From positions 1 to 55,769 of the forward strand of contig NZ_CALMAW010000036.1 of the NCBI RefSeq assembly GCF_937859915.1: a stretch of DNA of 55,769 nucleotides, in the 5' to 3' direction. Positions 4,109 through 21,529 of this stretch are shown piece by piece; the stretch's first letter is position 1, and the number at the start of each line of letters is the position of its first letter. Source of the stretch: an uncultured Sphingomonas sp. GTDB lineage: Bacteria > Pseudomonadota > Alphaproteobacteria > Sphingomonadales > Sphingomonadaceae. Made by a program: the position numbers and the translations under genes. The notes below the pieces were generated by a model. The model worked only from the letters and a program-made list of their open reading frames with translations, was not told where the DNA came from and searched no databases.

Positions 4109-5284
4109 ATGACGATGGCCGCGTTCACTTACGCGACGATGCTGATCGTCACCCTGATCATGGCGGGTGCGATGGCGATCGCCTGGGCGAGCTTCGGGCG
4201 GCCCCGCCACGCGCTGAGCTGGTCGATCGCCTATGCGCTCTACGGACTTGAACTGGTGCTGATGGCGACGATATCGTCGGTCGCCGAGCCGGGGCGGTCG
4301 GTGCTGTGGTCGCTGGCGCTGCTCGCGATCCTGATCGCTGCGGCCTTGCTTGCCGTCGGAGCGCGCCAGCGTGCGGGCCTGCCCGACTGGCGACGACGGT
4401 TTGCGGCGATGATCGGCGTGATGTTCGGCGCGACGCTGCTGGTCCGGCTGATCCCGGCGGCGCTGCCCTTCACGTCGCTCGCCTCGAGCCTGTTCACGCT
4501 GGTCATGCTGCAGATCGTGATTGCCGCGATCCGCCCGCGCGGACGCCGCCCCGATGCCGCCGAATGGGCGCTGATCGGCACGCTCGCGGCCTTCTCGCTG
4601 TACGAGATCGCGTTCATCGCCGTCCGGCTGGCAAGTTGCCTTCATCCCGAGAATGCCGGGCTGCGTGCGGCCTATACCAACATCTATTTGATCGGTCTGG
4701 TGCCGGTTTTCGTCGCAAACGGCATTGCCGGCGTGCTGCTGCTCGCGTCGGATCTGGCGGTCCGGTTGCGGGCGCAGGCCTCGCACGATCCGCTGACCGG
4801 CATCCTCAACCGCCGCGGGTTCCACGAGGCGGCGCTGCGCGCGGTCGCCAATGGCCGGCGCCAGCGCCAGGCGATTGCCGTCGCGATCGCGGACATCGAC
4901 CATTTCAAGGCGATCAACGACCGGTTCGGCCACACCATGGGCGATCGCACGCTCCACTATATCTGTACGCGGCTTTCGAGCGGCCTGCGGGTCGAGGATC
5001 TGGTCGGGCGCGTCGGCGGCGAGGAGTTCGCGCTGCTGCTGGTCAATTCGACCGCCGAGCAGGCCGCACAGGCGATGGAGCGGATCCGGATCGAGGTCGC
5101 AGCCGGTTTCGCCGAGGACGGCGCCCCGGTGCCGGTGACGATCAGTTTCGGCGTCGCCTCGGTACTGATCGGCACCGGCAATGCGGAGACCGCGATGGCG
5201 GAGGCCTTCGACGAGGCGGACCGGGCGCTGTACCGTTCGAAGCTCGGCGGCCGCAACCGCACCACGCTCGCGGCGCTCGCCTGA
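4109..5284 (+). CDS. Membrane-bound GGDEF diguanylate cyclase
   Basis: 391 residues. The first ~220 residues hold about six hydrophobic membrane spans with no recognisable sensory family. The C-terminal ~165 residues are a GGDEF domain: HDPLTGILNRRGF, then DIDHFKAINDRFGH (metal-binding Asp), and the active-site signature GGEEF, which is catalytically competent. It should make cyclic di-GMP from two GTP at the inner membrane. No RxxD inhibitory site is seen just before the signature. ATG at 4109 is taken as start; ATG at 4115 is an alternative. The gene begins five bases after the preceding stop, so the two may be co-transcribed. Confidence 0.9.
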   Translation: MTMAAFTYATMLIVTLIMAGAMAIAWASFGRPRHALSWSIAYALYGLELVLMATISSVAEPGRSVLWSLALLAILIAAALLAVGARQRAGLPDWRRRFAAMIGVMFGATLLVRLIPAALPFTSLASSLFTLVMLQIVIAAIRPRGRRPDAAEWALIGTLAAFSLYEIAFIAVRLASCLHPENAGLRAAYTNIYLIGLVPVFVANGIAGVLLLASDLAVRLRAQASHDPLTGILNRRGFHEAALRAVANGRRQRQAIAVAIADIDHFKAINDRFGHTMGDRTLHYICTRLSSGLRVEDLVGRVGGEEFALLLVNSTAEQAAQAMERIRIEVAAGFAEDGAPVPVTISFGVASVLIGTGNAETAMAEAFDEADRALYRSKLGGRNRTTLAALA

Positions 5285-17603: not shown

Positions 17604-18206
17604 ATGGAAGTGATCCTGCTCGAGCGCGTCGAGAAGCTCGGCGCCATCGGCGACATCGTCACCGTGAAGAACGGCTATGCCCGTAACTTCCTGCTGCCGA
17701 ACAAGAAGGCGCTGCGCTCCAACGCCGCCAACCGCAAGGTGTTCGAGGCCAATCGCGCCACGATCGAGGCCGATAACGCCAAGCGCCGCGACGTGGCCGT
17801 CACCGAGTCGAAGGACATCGACGGCAAGACGCTGACGCTGATCCGCCAGGCGTCGAACGTCGGCCAGCTCTACGGCTCGGTCTCGGCGCGCGATCTCGCG
17901 GAGCTTCTCGCCGCCGACGGCGCGCACATCACCCGGAGCCAGGTCGTGCTCGACAAGCCGATCAAGTCGATCGGCGTGCACACGGTCCGCGTCGTGCTCC
18001 ACGCCGAGGTCTCGGTGTCGATCAAGGTCAACGTCGCGCGTTCGCCCGAAGAGGCGGATCTGCAGGCGAAGGGCGTCGATGTCATGGCCGAGATGTTCGA
18101 GCGTGACGAAGCCGGCTTCACCGAAGACTATGACCCCAACGCAGAGCCCGGCGCCACCGCCGACGCCCCGCGCGAGGACCGCGAAGAGGAGCAGGCCGAG
18201 GCCTGA
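17604..18206 (+). CDS. rplI: 50S ribosomal protein L9
   Basis: 200 residues, with the N-terminal domain MEVILLERVEKLGAIGDIVTVKNGYARNFLLP, the long connecting helix and the C-terminal RNA-binding domain (GQLYGSVSARDLAELL). It is longer than E. coli L9 (~150) because of a Glu/Asp-rich C-terminal tail that starts around residue 165, as is common in alphaproteobacteria. An intrinsic terminator follows ~40 bases after the stop. Confidence 0.97.
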   Translation: MEVILLERVEKLGAIGDIVTVKNGYARNFLLPNKKALRSNAANRKVFEANRATIEADNAKRRDVAVTESKDIDGKTLTLIRQASNVGQLYGSVSARDLAELLAADGAHITRSQVVLDKPIKSIGVHTVRVVLHAEVSVSIKVNVARSPEEADLQAKGVDVMAEMFERDEAGFTEDYDPNAEPGATADAPREDREEEQAEA

Positions 18207-18243
18207 TCTTCTATCGCTTGAGACTCGGGTGACCGGGACAGAA

Positions 18244-18279
18244 GAGGCCGCTCCTGGAAGGGGGCGGCCTTTTTTGTTT
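18244..18279 (+). terminator. Intrinsic terminator of the rpsF-rpsR-rplI operon
   Basis: AGGCCGC (18245-18251) pairs with GCGGCCT (18264-18270), and a run TTTTTGTTTG follows immediately. It is placed between rplI and the 3' end of the convergent radical SAM gene. Confidence 0.88.
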
Positions 18280-18360
18280 GGCCCTATCGGTGGGCCGAAG
18301 ATGTGCGGCGCGCGGTGCCGGAGCCACGGTTCACCGACTGTCGACCGACCGGGTCGACGG

Positions 18361-19386
18361 TCACGCTACTATGCGTTCGATGGCATGTGGCAGTGCGGTT
18401 GCTCGCGGCTGCTTCGCAGCGGCCTGCATCGCGACGATCGCCTTGGCGGGACATTGCAGCGCCGCCCGATCGTCCATGTGCCAGCCCGAAAGCCATTGCG
18501 CGTAACGCTCGTTCAATCTGATCACGCCGTCCGAGCCGATGCGCCCGACCGCATTGTGCGCAGCGTTCAACGCTACCGTGCACATCTGTACGGCGCCATC
18601 GGCGCGGATGACGAAGCTGTTGGGCGTTGCAGCATAGCAGACATGCTCCTCGTCGGCATCCGCGCCCGATGCCGCCTTGCCGAGACCGGCCAGGCGATCC
18701 TCGAGCATCCGGGCGGCGTCCTGGAAGCGACCGCGGGACATCGGGCGGATCGTGTCGGGCAGCGCGCGGCCATAATTGCCCAGCATTTCGAAGGCGAACG
18801 ACACCCGGGGATCCTGCACGATCGTACCGAGTTCGGCGAGCAGGTCGTCGAACCGTGGAACGCTGATCTCGTCGAGGTGGATCCGCAGGGTGATCGCGAA
18901 GAGGAGATCAGAGGCACAGGCGGCGTGAAGGTTGGCGAGGATGGTCGCGAGGTCGCCCGCACCCTTGGCTTGACGTCGGCGGGCATTGTGGACGTCTGCC
19001 GGGCCGTCGATCGTGATCTGATATTGGGAGACCCCAAGCGCGCAGAGCCGTCGCAATCGTGGCAGGGTCAGGAGATGGCCGTTGGTCGTCGCGCCCGAAT
19101 GCAGCCGGATCGCGTGTTCGGCGGCGCTGTCATTTGCCGCCTGCATGATCTTCTCGATCACCGCCATGGCGAGCAACGGTTCGCCGCCGAACCAGGAAAT
19201 GGTGAGTTGATCGAGCAGCGGCGCACGGCTGGCGACCAGCCGGACGATGCCGTCGGAAACGCTATCCGCCATCCGCCCCTGCTCAAAATCCTCGTAACAA
19301 TAGACGCACCGGTAATTGCATTTCTCGGTTGGCATTATGATCAGCCCGAGACGTTTGTTGAGGAAGGCGGCGGCAAGATGGCTCAT
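18361..19386 (-). CDS. Radical SAM peptide maturase with partial SPASM/twitch tail
   Basis: 341 residues. The radical SAM cluster motif CNYRCVYC holds Cys23, Cys27 and Cys30, preceded by IIMPTEK and followed by YEDFEQGRM. FGGEP (66-70) binds SAM, and ITIDGP (124-129) is the family barrel strand. The tail has Cys250 and a G264-x4-Cys269 motif (the opening SPASM pattern), then a single Cys312 in QCPAKAI. The CxxCx5Cx3C and final Cys of a full SPASM domain are missing, so it fits a partial SPASM or twitch domain. ATG at 19386 has AAGGA eight bases upstream. It lies 25 bases after a 69-residue peptide gene with a Cys-containing tail. Inference: it modifies that peptide, perhaps by a thioether or carbon-carbon link. 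Class and product are not recognised. Confidence 0.85.
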   Translation of the reverse strand: MSHLAAAFLNKRLGLIIMPTEKCNYRCVYCYEDFEQGRMADSVSDGIVRLVASRAPLLDQLTISWFGGEPLLAMAVIEKIMQAANDSAAEHAIRLHSGATTNGHLLTLPRLRRLCALGVSQYQITIDGPADVHNARRRQAKGAGDLATILANLHAACASDLLFAITLRIHLDEISVPRFDDLLAELGTIVQDPRVSFAFEMLGNYGRALPDTIRPMSRGRFQDAARMLEDRLAGLGKAASGADADEEHVCYAATPNSFVIRADGAVQMCTVALNAAHNAVGRIGSDGVIRLNERYAQWLSGWHMDDRAALQCPAKAIVAMQAAAKQPRATALPHAIERIVA

Positions 19387-19411
19387 AAAGACGTTCCTTC
19401 GATCGATCGTC

Positions 19412-19621
19412 TCATTCGTCGGCGCAACTCTTGATATTGACGCACAGGGACTGCGAATTGGTCGACGCGTCCTCGAAGGCCTCGGCGGAGGGGAGCGCAC
19501 GCAGTGCCTCAGCCACCTGCTGATCCTCAATATGGACCCGGCCGTCCGCCGTCACCGACACATGCCCCGGATCGATCGTCGACAATATATTCTTGATGTC
19601 TTCAACATTTGAATCGGACAT
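19412..19621 (-). CDS. Candidate RiPP precursor peptide
   Basis: 69 residues, not recognised as a known family. The start MSDSNVEDIKNIL at 19621 is set by a GGAG six bases upstream; longer starts at 19645 and beyond lack this. Residues 1-50 are acidic, with a predicted helix and a VSVTADGRVHIED strand pair, as expected for a leader. The last ~17 residues are Ser/Asn/Cys-rich and contain the only two cysteines (C60 and C66, SLCVNIKSCADE), a plausible core. It is followed after 25 bases by the radical SAM gene, so both are probably one transcript. No transporter or protease gene is next to them. The precursor role is inferred from size, context and cysteine placement. Confidence 0.7.
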   Translation of the reverse strand: MSDSNVEDIKNILSTIDPGHVSVTADGRVHIEDQQVAEALRALPSAEAFEDASTNSQSLCVNIKSCADE

Positions 19622-20220
19622 GGATATCTCCATAATAGACATGGTATATTCGTTCGCCATAGATTGCATCGATCATCGTATTTGAGCGATTCTCTATAGC
19701 GCTAATATTGATAACATCTGACAGTCGACTCGCAAGCGGCGATCCGCGCCAGTCTGACGTTGTTTATTGTTGACAATTGAGGCGCTTAACTGTTGATGGG
19801 CGCATATTGGCTCTAATGGCATCGAGATCGCTCGCGCCCGCTCGACGCCTGTCGTGCCAAACGAAGACTCGCATCTAATCGGGGGTCCGCTCCGACCGGG
19901 ATCGCATCGCGTCCGCGCTCCAACGCCCCGGTCTCCTAGGACGCAAGGCGTCGGCCGCCGGCGCAGACGACGGCCCCCGCGGGATCCGCGGCCCCGCACT
20001 TTCCCGCATGCATGAGACACGCCAGGGCGCCGACCGTTTCGCTCGCTTGGTCGTACGACAAAAGGCGGACGACGCGCGTCCGCACATTTTGCATGCGCCA
20101 TAGCTCCGCGGGGGGGAGGTAGGGCCTCACATCTCTAAAATTGCGCGGTGCTCGCGACCGGTCCCGGACCCGGGCCCCGGCAATCGCGGGCGAACGAGGA
20201 CGCGCGCTGGCGGGGCTCCG
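19622..20220. other. Upstream region of the RiPP-like locus, with little evidence of genes
   Basis: About 600 bases without a convincing gene. The part next to the precursor (19622-19800) is clearly richer in A and T than its surroundings and probably holds the promoter. On the minus strand TTGCGA, then ~16 bases and TTATCA, is a weak -35/-10 candidate. The remainder is GC-rich. One reading (GTG at 20130 to 19936) gives 64 residues with natural composition and Cys-containing text (ALACLMHAGKCG), but no ribosome-binding site is seen, so it is listed separately at low confidence. Confidence 0.5.
19936..20130 (-). CDS. Doubtful small ORF upstream of the RiPP-like locus
   Basis: 64 residues from GTG. 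The text LLSYDQASETVGALACLMHAGKCG has a natural amino-acid mix, unlike the Arg-rich alternative frames. Three Cys occur in the C-terminal half, the last in GAVVCAGG. There is no good ribosome-binding site and no family is recognised. It could be a decayed gene or chance. Confidence 0.2.
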   Translation of the reverse strand: MRPYLPPAELWRMQNVRTRVVRLLSYDQASETVGALACLMHAGKCGAADPAGAVVCAGGRRLAS

Positions 20221-21438
20221 CTATTCCGCCGTCATCACCGCAATCGCCGCCTCGGCCTGGCGCGCAAATGTCATGCCGTTGCCGATGCCGGCATAATAGC
20301 CGAGGAACAGCGCCATCTCGCGGAGTTGATCAACGGTGAACTCGGCCTGGTGGCGCGCGCCGTCGAGCTGGACCTCGAGCAGGTCGGCGCGGCCCAACAT
20401 CGTTGTCACGCCGAGCGCGAGCAGGCGCCGGTCGCGCATCGTGAGATGGCCCCGCGCCCATATCTCGCCGAACAGATGTTCGACCGTGTCGGTCAGCCCC
20501 GGCGTCCGCGGTGCGGCGTCGAGCCGGTCCGCGACCGCCGGCGCATAGACCCGCGCCATCGATGCGATCCCGCGCGCCCACGGATCGTCCGCGCGCGGCG
20601 GCGCGGCCTCGCCGGCGAGCGTCGCGCGCATCTTCGGGCGGACGACGTCGGCGATCGGCGTCTCGATCCCGGCGGCGCCCGCAAACTGCTGGACCGCGGC
20701 CAGATCCTTCTGGACCAGCCGATCGACCGCGGCGACCTGCTCGTCTGACCAGCGCGTGCCCGTCAGCTGCGCCTCGAGCCGCGAATGCGGCGCGGTGCCC
20801 CCCTCGGTCGCGGACTTGAGCACCGCGAGCAGCATCGCGGGATCGGCGCCGCCCGCCGTCGCGAGCTCCACCGCCTCGTGGATCACCGCCCAGCTCGCAT
20901 AGGTGACGTGGTTGCGTGCGAGCTTGACGATCATCCCCGTACCGAGCCCGCCGCAATGGACGACGGTCTTGGAAAAGGCCTCGAGCACGGGTCGGATGCG
21001 CTCGATCGTCGCGGGCTCGCCGCCGACCATCGTCACCAGACGGCCCTGCCCCGCCTGGGTCACGCCCGCATCGACCAGCGTCGCGCCATGCTGCGCGCAG
21101 ATCGCGGCGAACTCGTGGATCGCTGCCAGATCGAGCGTCGAGAGGATGACGACGACCAGCCCGGGCTTGGCGATCGACAGCAGCCCTTGGTCGCCAAGCA
21201 GCACGTCGCGCACCTGCTTCGCGTCGATCACGGCGATCATCACGACGTCGGCGCGCCGCGCGACCTCGGCCGGCGCGGCGCAGACGGTGACGCCGTCGAG
21301 TCCGTCCGCGGCATCGGCCCGGACGTCGAACAGGATGGGGTCGTGGCCCGCCGCGGCGAGCTGGAGTGCGACCCCTCGGCCGATCATACCGAGCCCGACG
21401 ACGCCGGGCCTCAGCTGCTGCGATACGGCGTCGGTCAT
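20221..21438 (-). CDS. HIBADH-type dehydrogenase fused to carboxymuconolactone decarboxylase-like domain
   Basis: 405 residues from ATG at 21438, chosen because GGGAG lies six bases ahead (ATG at 21444 is also open). Residues ~10-275 are a 3-hydroxyisobutyrate dehydrogenase-like NAD(P) enzyme: GVVGLGMIGRGVA at the start, then DAGVTQAGQGRL and GMIVKLARNHVTY with the conserved Lys and Asn. Residues ~280-405 match the carboxymuconolactone decarboxylase/AhpD fold (RDRRLLALGVTTMLGR, EFTVDQLREMALFLGYYAGIGN). The CxxC of AhpD peroxidases is not seen. The substrate is unknown. The fusion suggests two steps of one catabolic route. Confidence 0.82.
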   Translation of the reverse strand: MTDAVSQQLRPGVVGLGMIGRGVALQLAAAGHDPILFDVRADAADGLDGVTVCAAPAEVARRADVVMIAVIDAKQVRDVLLGDQGLLSIAKPGLVVVILSTLDLAAIHEFAAICAQHGATLVDAGVTQAGQGRLVTMVGGEPATIERIRPVLEAFSKTVVHCGGLGTGMIVKLARNHVTYASWAVIHEAVELATAGGADPAMLLAVLKSATEGGTAPHSRLEAQLTGTRWSDEQVAAVDRLVQKDLAAVQQFAGAAGIETPIADVVRPKMRATLAGEAAPPRADDPWARGIASMARVYAPAVADRLDAAPRTPGLTDTVEHLFGEIWARGHLTMRDRRLLALGVTTMLGRADLLEVQLDGARHQAEFTVDQLREMALFLGYYAGIGNGMTFARQAEAAIAVMTAE

Positions 21439-21529
21439 GTCCATCTCCCGGTGTCGCGGCGGCCCCTTACGAGCTCATCCGATCTGGATCGCGTCGGCGC
21501 CGGTCACCCCGCAGGGGTGTCGCGCCCAC

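Follow-up and report, generated by a model that had tools for sequence, protein, structure and literature searches.

A compact radical SAM enzyme beside a cysteine-tailed peptide in Sphingomonas: a putative RiPP precursor and maturase that may form an Asn-Cys thioether

The 55,769-nucleotide stretch of contig NZ_CALMAW010000036.1 from an uncultured Sphingomonas sp., analysed here as a whole and called the window, carries on its reverse strand a gene for a 69-residue peptide and, 25 bases after the stop codon of that gene, the ATG of a gene for a 341-residue radical SAM (S-adenosylmethionine, AdoMet) enzyme (Table 1). The peptide has two cysteines, C60 and C66, both within its last ten residues (tail SLCVNIKSCADE), and the enzyme carries C23NYRC27VYC30, GGEP at 67-70, C250, G264-x4-C269 and C312. 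All of this, ribosome-binding site included, bears out an earlier sequence-only reading of the locus, which had also proposed that the two genes form a radical SAM-modified RiPP (ribosomally synthesised and post-translationally modified peptide) system of a family it did not recognise. It is well supported by sequence comparison that the pair is a RiPP precursor with its maturase, as judged from the recurrence of an adjacent leader-core peptide gene, and of C39 exporters, beside related enzymes. In its own genome the enzyme, used as query, finds itself alone at E 0.001.

Table 1. Gene pair, sequence signals and surrounding segment in the window (- marks the reverse strand)
Feature	Position	Strand	Basis
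Precursor peptide gene (putative), 69 aa	19412..19621	-	Open reading frame (ATG at 19621, stop ends 19412); leader motif 19.0 bits, own motif left out of matrix
Leader motif VSVTADGRVHI, residues 21-31	19529..19561	-	Ungapped match to 26 other seed peptides (chosen for motif); re-found in 16/33 non-seed loci
Core (putative) CVNIKSC, C60 to C66, candidate acceptor N62	19424..19444	-	CxNxxxC register; L063 similar (CLNIRNC)
GGAG, ribosome-binding site of peptide gene	19628..19631	-	Sequence; 6 bases 5' of ATG
Compact radical SAM peptide maturase (putative), 341 aa	18361..19386	-	Open reading frame (ATG at 19386, stop ends 18361), Pfam/NCBIfam profiles, AlphaFold
AAGGA, ribosome-binding site of enzyme gene	19395..19399	-	Sequence; 8 bases 5' of ATG
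CxxxCxxC (C23, C27, C30), AdoMet iron-sulfur cluster ligands (predicted)	19297..19320	-	Invariant in 51/51 compact enzymes
Tail with post-core C250, C269, C312, then P313	18451..18639	-	Invariant in 51/51; aligns with SPASM Cys of sister class
Probable inserted segment between rplI and folE, approximate ends	18279..21529	.	rplI/folE alignment against congeners

The enzyme belongs to the radical SAM superfamily, as established by its match to Pfam Radical_SAM (PF04055; E 1.4e-12, 48.5 bits versus a cut-off of 29.5), its invariant CxxxCxxC and a fold search. We placed it among 102 loci, made up of 80 from genome contigs, 8 viral, 8 from plasmids and 6 from kin genomes (window included). The genome-contig loci were kept from at least 507 that encode a relative and were found with an alignment as query (the single enzyme sequence gave no match against the same contigs); the viral ones are the best 8 of 63; and relatives occur in at least 79 plasmid records, the top identity being 38.5% among the matches listed with at least 80% query coverage. 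An enzyme match at 1e-20 was obtained in 5 of 197 kin genomes, and an enzyme match in 2 of 385 genomes of the same class, the own genome counted in both cases. The peptide alone, searched in 60 genomes (own included), gave no other match under E 0.068, and no close orthologue was found.

These relatives are of two kinds. In the compact kind (65 loci), to which the window locus belongs, the space available ahead of CxxxCxxC has a median of 36 residues, under 85 in 61 of the 65 loci, and the core is followed by three regular cysteines. In the full-SPASM kind (37 loci) the corresponding median is 114 residues, under 85 in 1 locus of the 37, and the cysteines form the seven-cysteine SPASM pattern; the nearest relatives of the compact kind have an RRE-like (RiPP recognition element) domain together with the seven SPASM cysteines. 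Among the 65 are the copies L032, L108 and L002, the cut contig L110 and the misfiled L020, a frame-broken Deinococcus copy close to the full-SPASM L019, and dropping these five leaves 60 distinct loci; L097, compact in the 65-locus totals, counted as full in the initial pattern-based split. In a midpoint-rooted tree of 96 of the 102 rows (L110, L111, L020, L032, L108 and L002 omitted), the compact rows, L097 among them, lie on one branch (support 100/96) that the Deinococcus full-type L019 adjoins. Without the tail columns the tree requires 2 label changes versus a shuffled mean of 29.6, with which a single origin of the compact kind would be compatible. By origin labels, compact enzymes occur in Pseudomonadota, Actinomycetota, Bacillota, Cyanobacteriota, Myxococcota, Bdellovibrionota, Verrucomicrobiota, Planctomycetota, Acidobacteriota, Bacteroidota, Thermodesulfobacteriota and Candidatus Eiseniibacteriota, as well as in archaeal metagenome bins of Microcaldota and Marsarchaeota, where misbinning is possible. 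Contigs of the viral class (L105-L109, L111) also carry a compact enzyme with Cys-containing peptide open reading frames (ORFs), with two precursors each in L106 and L107.

That the family had not been recognised agrees with our searches, in which no named family fits. The peptide gave nothing against NCBIfam up to E 1 and a sole Pfam match, under its cut-off. A set of eight peptides including that of the window (A2) gave five NCBIfam and seven Pfam matches, each to one peptide, with best E-values of 0.047 and 0.0085, respectively; eight further peptides matched NCBIfam under cut-off throughout, the best being bacteriocin/RiPP leader families around the double glycine (NF038167, E 0.00058, 20 bits for a cut-off of 32). 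The enzyme stays far under the cut-offs of TIGR04334 (119.5/600 bits), TIGR04463 (111.9/525), TIGR04280 (99.9/400), NF038107 (94.9/600) and NF047865, PapB (86.2/340). All 51 aligned compact enzymes match TIGR04463, TIGR04334 (Clo7bot) and NF038107 (CefB) at E 1e-20 or lower, with a best NCBIfam E-value of 1.5e-46, which, judged by E-value, is too weak for cut-offs of 340-600 bits. No homologue was thus shown to act on a known substrate. Searches of an open-licence library of papers gave no description of this kind of enzyme-peptide pair. More than 250 clusters of the parent enzyme family, with enzymes restricted to 340-450 aa, have been mapped according to passages of PMC9062424, and the compact kind may sit unnamed among them.

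The alignment of the 51 compact enzymes (A4) has 29 invariant columns, including C23, C27, C30, GGEP 67-70, C250, C269, N278, C312 and P313. The window enzyme keeps 29/29 of the columns that are invariant in the other 50, and 56/59 of those conserved in at least 90%, with Y25, V195 and M268 as exceptions. Its AlphaFold model (mean predicted local distance difference test, pLDDT, 91.8; predicted template-modelling score 0.89) starts with one short helix (3-8) followed by the first barrel strand (12-17), and because nothing but this helix precedes the barrel, the enzyme is predicted to lack the N-terminal winged-helix RRE. In the model of the full-SPASM relative L088 (pLDDT 92.0), the barrel is preceded by four strands and then by three helices (38-47, 59-66, 77-89) and a short strand (70-72), a make-up that, likened by the description of its elements, resembles the RRE as set out in passages of PMC8326336. 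The top Foldseek matches in the PDB are CteB (5why, TM-score 0.64 by query), anSME (4k39) and ChlB (9gm3), with SkfB (6efn) at rank 21; the best of them, 5why, is an entry titled for thioether formation.

The sequence-only reading had described the end of the enzyme as a partial SPASM tail. The three cysteines are there, but they are the regular state of the compact kind and not a peculiarity of this enzyme. Profile comparison of the compact with the full-SPASM kind gives 100% probability across 313 columns, and the first and second SPASM cysteines of the sister enzymes are the aligned counterparts of C250 and C269. The partner of C312 varies: it is the Cys preceding Pro with MAFFT genafpair (and in hhalign, through the CP pair) and the second Cys of CxxC with MAFFT localpair, while P313 falls on the SPASM Pro in both MAFFT options. 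All seven SPASM cysteines (Cx9-15Gx4C..Cx2Cx5Cx3C..C) are found in 29/29 aligned sister enzymes while the window enzyme has only C250, C269 and C312; judged by its cysteines, it would thus fall outside the SPASM definition of two auxiliary clusters and seven Cys. Its set fits the truncated SPASM of a Twitch domain, a comparison made by alignment, in which cluster binding is predicted. Since three post-core cysteines are invariant, compact enzymes should hold at most one auxiliary cluster. Where TrnC is aligned to CteB in part of PMC12093266, the first two Cys and the one before last likely bind auxiliary cluster I (Aux I) and the other four Aux II; and the Aux I of CteB has an open site, occupied by a substrate Cys in the crystal (passages of PMC6231123). 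It is therefore plausible by homology that compact enzymes have kept an Aux I with an open site and lost Aux II.

The pairing with a peptide rests on a leader motif found beside compact enzymes, approximately [IVLF]x[IVLF][DN]xxGx[IV]x[IVL], taken ungapped from 27 seed peptides of 27 loci that were chosen for it. As a control for circularity, every locus was scored with a matrix built without that locus, and it counted only if an ORF close to the enzyme, on its strand, had both the motif and a Cys following it. Such an ORF is present in 47 of the 60 distinct compact loci (window included) at 8 bits, 41 at 10 and 39 at 12, versus 3, 2 and 0 of the 37 full-SPASM loci; the initial locus classification had given 45/64 compact loci at 10 bits. 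The 33 held-out loci that gave neither a seed nor a copy of one reach the motif in 20 cases at 8 bits, 16 at 10 and 13 at 15, and nine of the 16 have NxxC after it (eleven, NxxC or NxxxC). At 10 bits or more with a following Cys, the motif marks 46 of 916 near ORFs versus 14 of 6749 far ones, and seven of these 14 look like additional precursors: L033, L034 and L059 have one each, and L058 (Massilia sp. CF038) has four. Those of L058 are rich in Cys and Asn, come on top of the ORF next to the enzyme, and have their stops 3.9-4.9 kb beyond the first cluster Cys of the enzyme. To the question posed by the sequence-only reading, whether the peptide always accompanies the enzyme, the answer is often but not always: thirteen of the 60 loci have no motif ORF at 8 bits. 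Enzyme homologues without a recognised peptide, which that reading would have taken as a refutation, do exist, in a group where the pairing is otherwise common. Among the weak cases, L033 has its motif ORF 3 kb away and L061, L081 and L094 have look-alikes at 6-7 bits. The thirteen would suit the idea that the small ORF is a chance neighbour and that the enzyme acts on some other substrate, which we consider hardly credible for the window given the pairing at 41/60 and 16/33 loci, and given that the peptide has the highest leader score of the 590 ORFs in the window, ahead of a runner-up with 11.7 bits (matrix built without the window peptide).

We also tried the idea that the leader is a displaced RRE hairpin. 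The matrix scored higher on the RRE-like N-terminus than on the rest of the protein in only 10/29 full-SPASM enzymes, and on average 9.6% of the shuffled N-termini scored as high, so the likeness is a look-alike and the idea is unsupported. The leader motif also turns up in the Deinococcus plasmids L019 (30.2 bits) and L020 (28.1 bits), in each case in one small ORF on the opposite strand, about 1.8 kb before the radical SAM core. The ORF of L020 adjoins a split lantibiotic dehydratase cluster, and a second class of RiPP enzymes may therefore use this type of leader.

What the enzyme might do to the peptide is suggested by the spacing of residues in the core. We gathered 53 peptides by hand, with a Cys near the end, and not an Asn, as the selection condition; 51 of them have at least two Cys after the motif, the terminal Cys being that condition. 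Among the offsets -9 to -1 from a Cys, Asn is far over its background of 9.8% at -3 (71 of 154 Cys) and -4 (41 of 153) only. NxxC occurs in 42 of the 53 peptides (shuffle mean 14.8, standard deviation 2.9; reached in 0/1000 shuffles), with 23 (shuffle mean 14.0) for NxxxC, 14 (13.9) for NxC and 17 (13.3) for NxxxxC, and, for other residues, 7 (8.5) for DxxC, 9 (16.0) for GxxC, 6 (12.4) for SxxC and 12 (9.3) for TxxC. An automatic set, free of hand-picking, gives NxxC in 34/47 peptides (mean 10.5, largest of 2000 shuffles 21) and NxxxC in 20/47 (10.0 and 19), with the controls NxC at 12/47 (mean 10.1) and NxxxxC at 13/47 (9.7); the NxC and NxxxxC counts lie within about 1.4 standard deviations of the shuffled mean. 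When one peptide per enzyme cluster is taken, NxxC stands in 16/24 (mean 6.5, largest shuffle 12), a strict test, as 24 enzymes fell into one and the same cluster under single linkage at 50% identity. The register of the window, CxNxxxC, is seen in 9/53 collected peptides (shuffle mean 2.9, largest of 2000 shuffles 9), and 14 of 22 Cys pairs six apart carry Asn at the second place. Tails like that of the window occur in the archaeal candidate L063 (CLNIRNC; 8.7 bits) and in Paludibacter L099 (VNIKDC).

The tail therefore remains the likely target, as first proposed, and the acceptor of a crosslink is now likely to be the Asn three or four residues before a Cys. A sactipeptide-type maturase would join the Cys sulfur to an alpha carbon instead, as does SkfB, a Twitch-domain sactisynthase (according to part of PMC6231123) found among the fold matches, and the tail of the window offers several possible acceptors; we hold this to be rather unlikely, since SkfB, as described there, has an RRE and a CXC among its cluster-binding Cys that the window enzyme lacks, and since the group as a whole favours Asn at two set distances from Cys, a feature that recalls the C-beta system NxxcA of Streptococcus. 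There Cys23 is joined to the C-beta of Asn20 (passages of PMC8326336), the same bond type being given in part of PMC13361665. The enzyme might also modify Asn or a neighbour without any crosslink to Cys (epimerisation, hydroxylation or dehydrogenation), the cysteines serving as disulfide or metal ligands. Enzymes of the radical SAM fold do many things (the epimerase EpeE is among the fold matches) and the pairs of Cys in nearly all cores would suit such a role, but the Asn is positioned relative to Cys, with -3 and -4 alone far over background, and this makes a modification without crosslink unlikely.

Compact loci also show how such peptides might leave the cell. One hundred co-directional neighbour ORFs, taken from 104 selected among 214 after four were excluded for overlap with peptide genes, include 13 matches to Peptidase_C39, 13 to ABC domains and 7 to HlyD. 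Searched by tblastn with two C39 domains, C39 is found in 20/65 compact loci (19 without the copy L032) versus 0/37 full-SPASM loci. Among the 47 loci with a collected peptide, double-glycine leaders go with it: they are present in 9/14 loci that have C39 and in 6/33 that lack it (Fisher p 0.005), by a crude pattern that misses clear cases such as L036, L045 and L055. In these relatives, C39 peptidase-ABC exporters may carry out the export.

The gene pair was probably acquired by horizontal transfer, as the sequence-only reading had suggested. No enzyme match at 1e-20 was found in the congeners (0/9), and the 1-kb bin 19001-20000 has the lowest G+C of the window (58.6%). The DNA beyond rplI was compared in six congeners (G001, G002, G004, G005, G007 and G009): the aligned rplI and folE stretches are about 90 and 110 bp apart in G002 and G009, respectively, versus about 3.25 kb in the window. 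G007, 94.7% identical at rplI, carries about 2.8 kb of unrelated DNA between the two genes, and the site may therefore be an insertion hot spot. For G001, G004 and G005, the stretch taken beyond rplI gave no alignment to folE, so the order rplI-folE is not fixed in the genus. Besides the pair, the inserted segment encodes a 3-hydroxyisobutyrate dehydrogenase-like/carboxymuconolactone decarboxylase fusion (20221-21444, reverse strand). It contains no tRNA, a repeat search spanned 18150-20300, and no convincing gene was seen in the roughly 530 bases from the peptide gene to the next gene (19694-20220), where ORFs had no database search. An ORF is also present between rplI and folE of G007 (L180, about 4574-5221), which we take to resemble a PIN/VapC-type protein.

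On balance we favour, with modest confidence, a RiPP precursor and maturase that were probably acquired and that probably make an Asn-Cys thioether, working like NxxcA/NxxcB. The 69-residue peptide would be the precursor, with residues 1 to about 45 as leader and the last ten or so as core, and the enzyme, lacking an RRE, would recognise a hairpin-like VSVTADGRVHI. AdoMet would be cleaved at the C23/C27/C30 cluster and a hydrogen abstracted from the side chain of Asn62, most likely at C-beta; the Asn62 carbon would then be joined to a Cys sulfur, most likely that of C66 (NxxxC), a Cys that would be positioned by a single auxiliary cluster, with C250, C269 and C312 as its ligands and an open site for the substrate sulfur. 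More tentatively still, as a possibility that falls slightly short of being probable, we propose a large undescribed RiPP class in which compact radical SAM enzymes devoid of an RRE and of the second auxiliary cluster would read a hairpin leader, [IV]x[IVL][DN]xxGx[IV]x[IVL], directly and make Asn-Cys C-beta thioether rings on N-x(2,3)-C cores in many bacterial phyla and in archaea, the window being a minimal single-ring member.

Several observations weigh against this thioether interpretation, starting with the compact loci that have no motif ORF at 8 bits and with the doubtful nature of some matches at 8-10 bits, such as that of L092. The window core has NxxxC, without the commoner NxxC, and with one peptide per enzyme cluster NxxxC stands in 11/24 versus a mean of 6.0, a count that some shuffles reach (largest 14); likewise, the nine CxNxxxC peptides trace back to seven loci and represent only four enzyme clusters. 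The full-SPASM sister loci L044, L075, L080, L082 and L098 contain short ORFs with tails like NTNCGGC, NGNCGIC and NVNCLC (seen by eye, uncounted), so Asn-Cys tails are not special to the compact kind, and the habit may predate it. M268 of the window enzyme replaces a Lys found in 48/50 others, and the enzyme sits on a long branch of the tree. The window locus has neither a C39 exporter nor a double-glycine leader. No transporter or peptidase lies beside the pair, as the sequence-only reading had remarked, although the exporters of its relatives now change the context, and the genome, which is 80% complete, yielded no C39 domain. The long branch and the missing export functions would also fit a decaying relic of a peptide kind that is a genuine RiPP substrate elsewhere; intact frames, good ribosome-binding sites and the conserved positions kept throughout the enzyme make this very unlikely.

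If the thioether interpretation is right, a widespread peptide-crosslinking enzyme exists in a very small form, with no RRE and one auxiliary cluster at most, and two points can be put to a direct test: which of the auxiliary clusters is required in a thioether maturase, and how an enzyme that has no RRE recognises its leader. The compact loci supply many natural precursor-enzyme pairs for comparison, and with so short an acceptor rule (Asn, two or three residues, Cys) enzymes of this size would find use in the production of cyclic peptides.

The nearest NCBIfam models are those of the TIGR04463, Clo7bot and CefB maturases, for which the window scores 94.9-119.5 bits versus cut-offs of 525-600; the match starts at model positions 77-80, the N-terminal part of these models being absent from the window enzyme. 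PapB, which makes freyrasin from PapA (NF047865, E 2.4e-24), is also a radical SAM thioether maturase, and the start of the window enzyme falls near that of the 330-position model; PapA uses Cys-X3-Asp/Glu, with the Cys before the acceptor (passages of PMC9413430), whereas here Asn precedes Cys. The Twitch-type enzymes SkfB and TrnD, as the partial accounts above describe them, resemble the proposed compact state in having one auxiliary cluster instead of two, but an RRE, or a variant of one, stands at their N-terminus, and their Cys spacings (CXC in SkfB, Cx2Cx5C in TrnD) are unlike those of compact enzymes. The thermocellin maturase CteB (5why/5wgg), in spite of being the best fold match, is described as having an RRE and a second auxiliary cluster, unlike the window enzyme. 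Closest in the proposed chemistry are NxxcA and NxxcB, from Streptococcus orisratti and S. porci, C-beta thioether ranthipeptide systems which, in the passages that describe them, likewise combine a radical SAM enzyme, an auxiliary-cluster region and a small precursor. NxxcB is listed as a SPASM enzyme in part of PMC9012708 and, compared by description and not by sequence, differs in this from the three tail Cys of compact enzymes, and streptococcal systems are linked to Rgg/SHP regulators (part of PMC13361665). NxxcA places Asn three before Cys, as do 42/53 peptides of the compact kind; the window tail has NxxxC instead, and so the peptide falls outside the ranthipeptide type defined by NxxC in the core.

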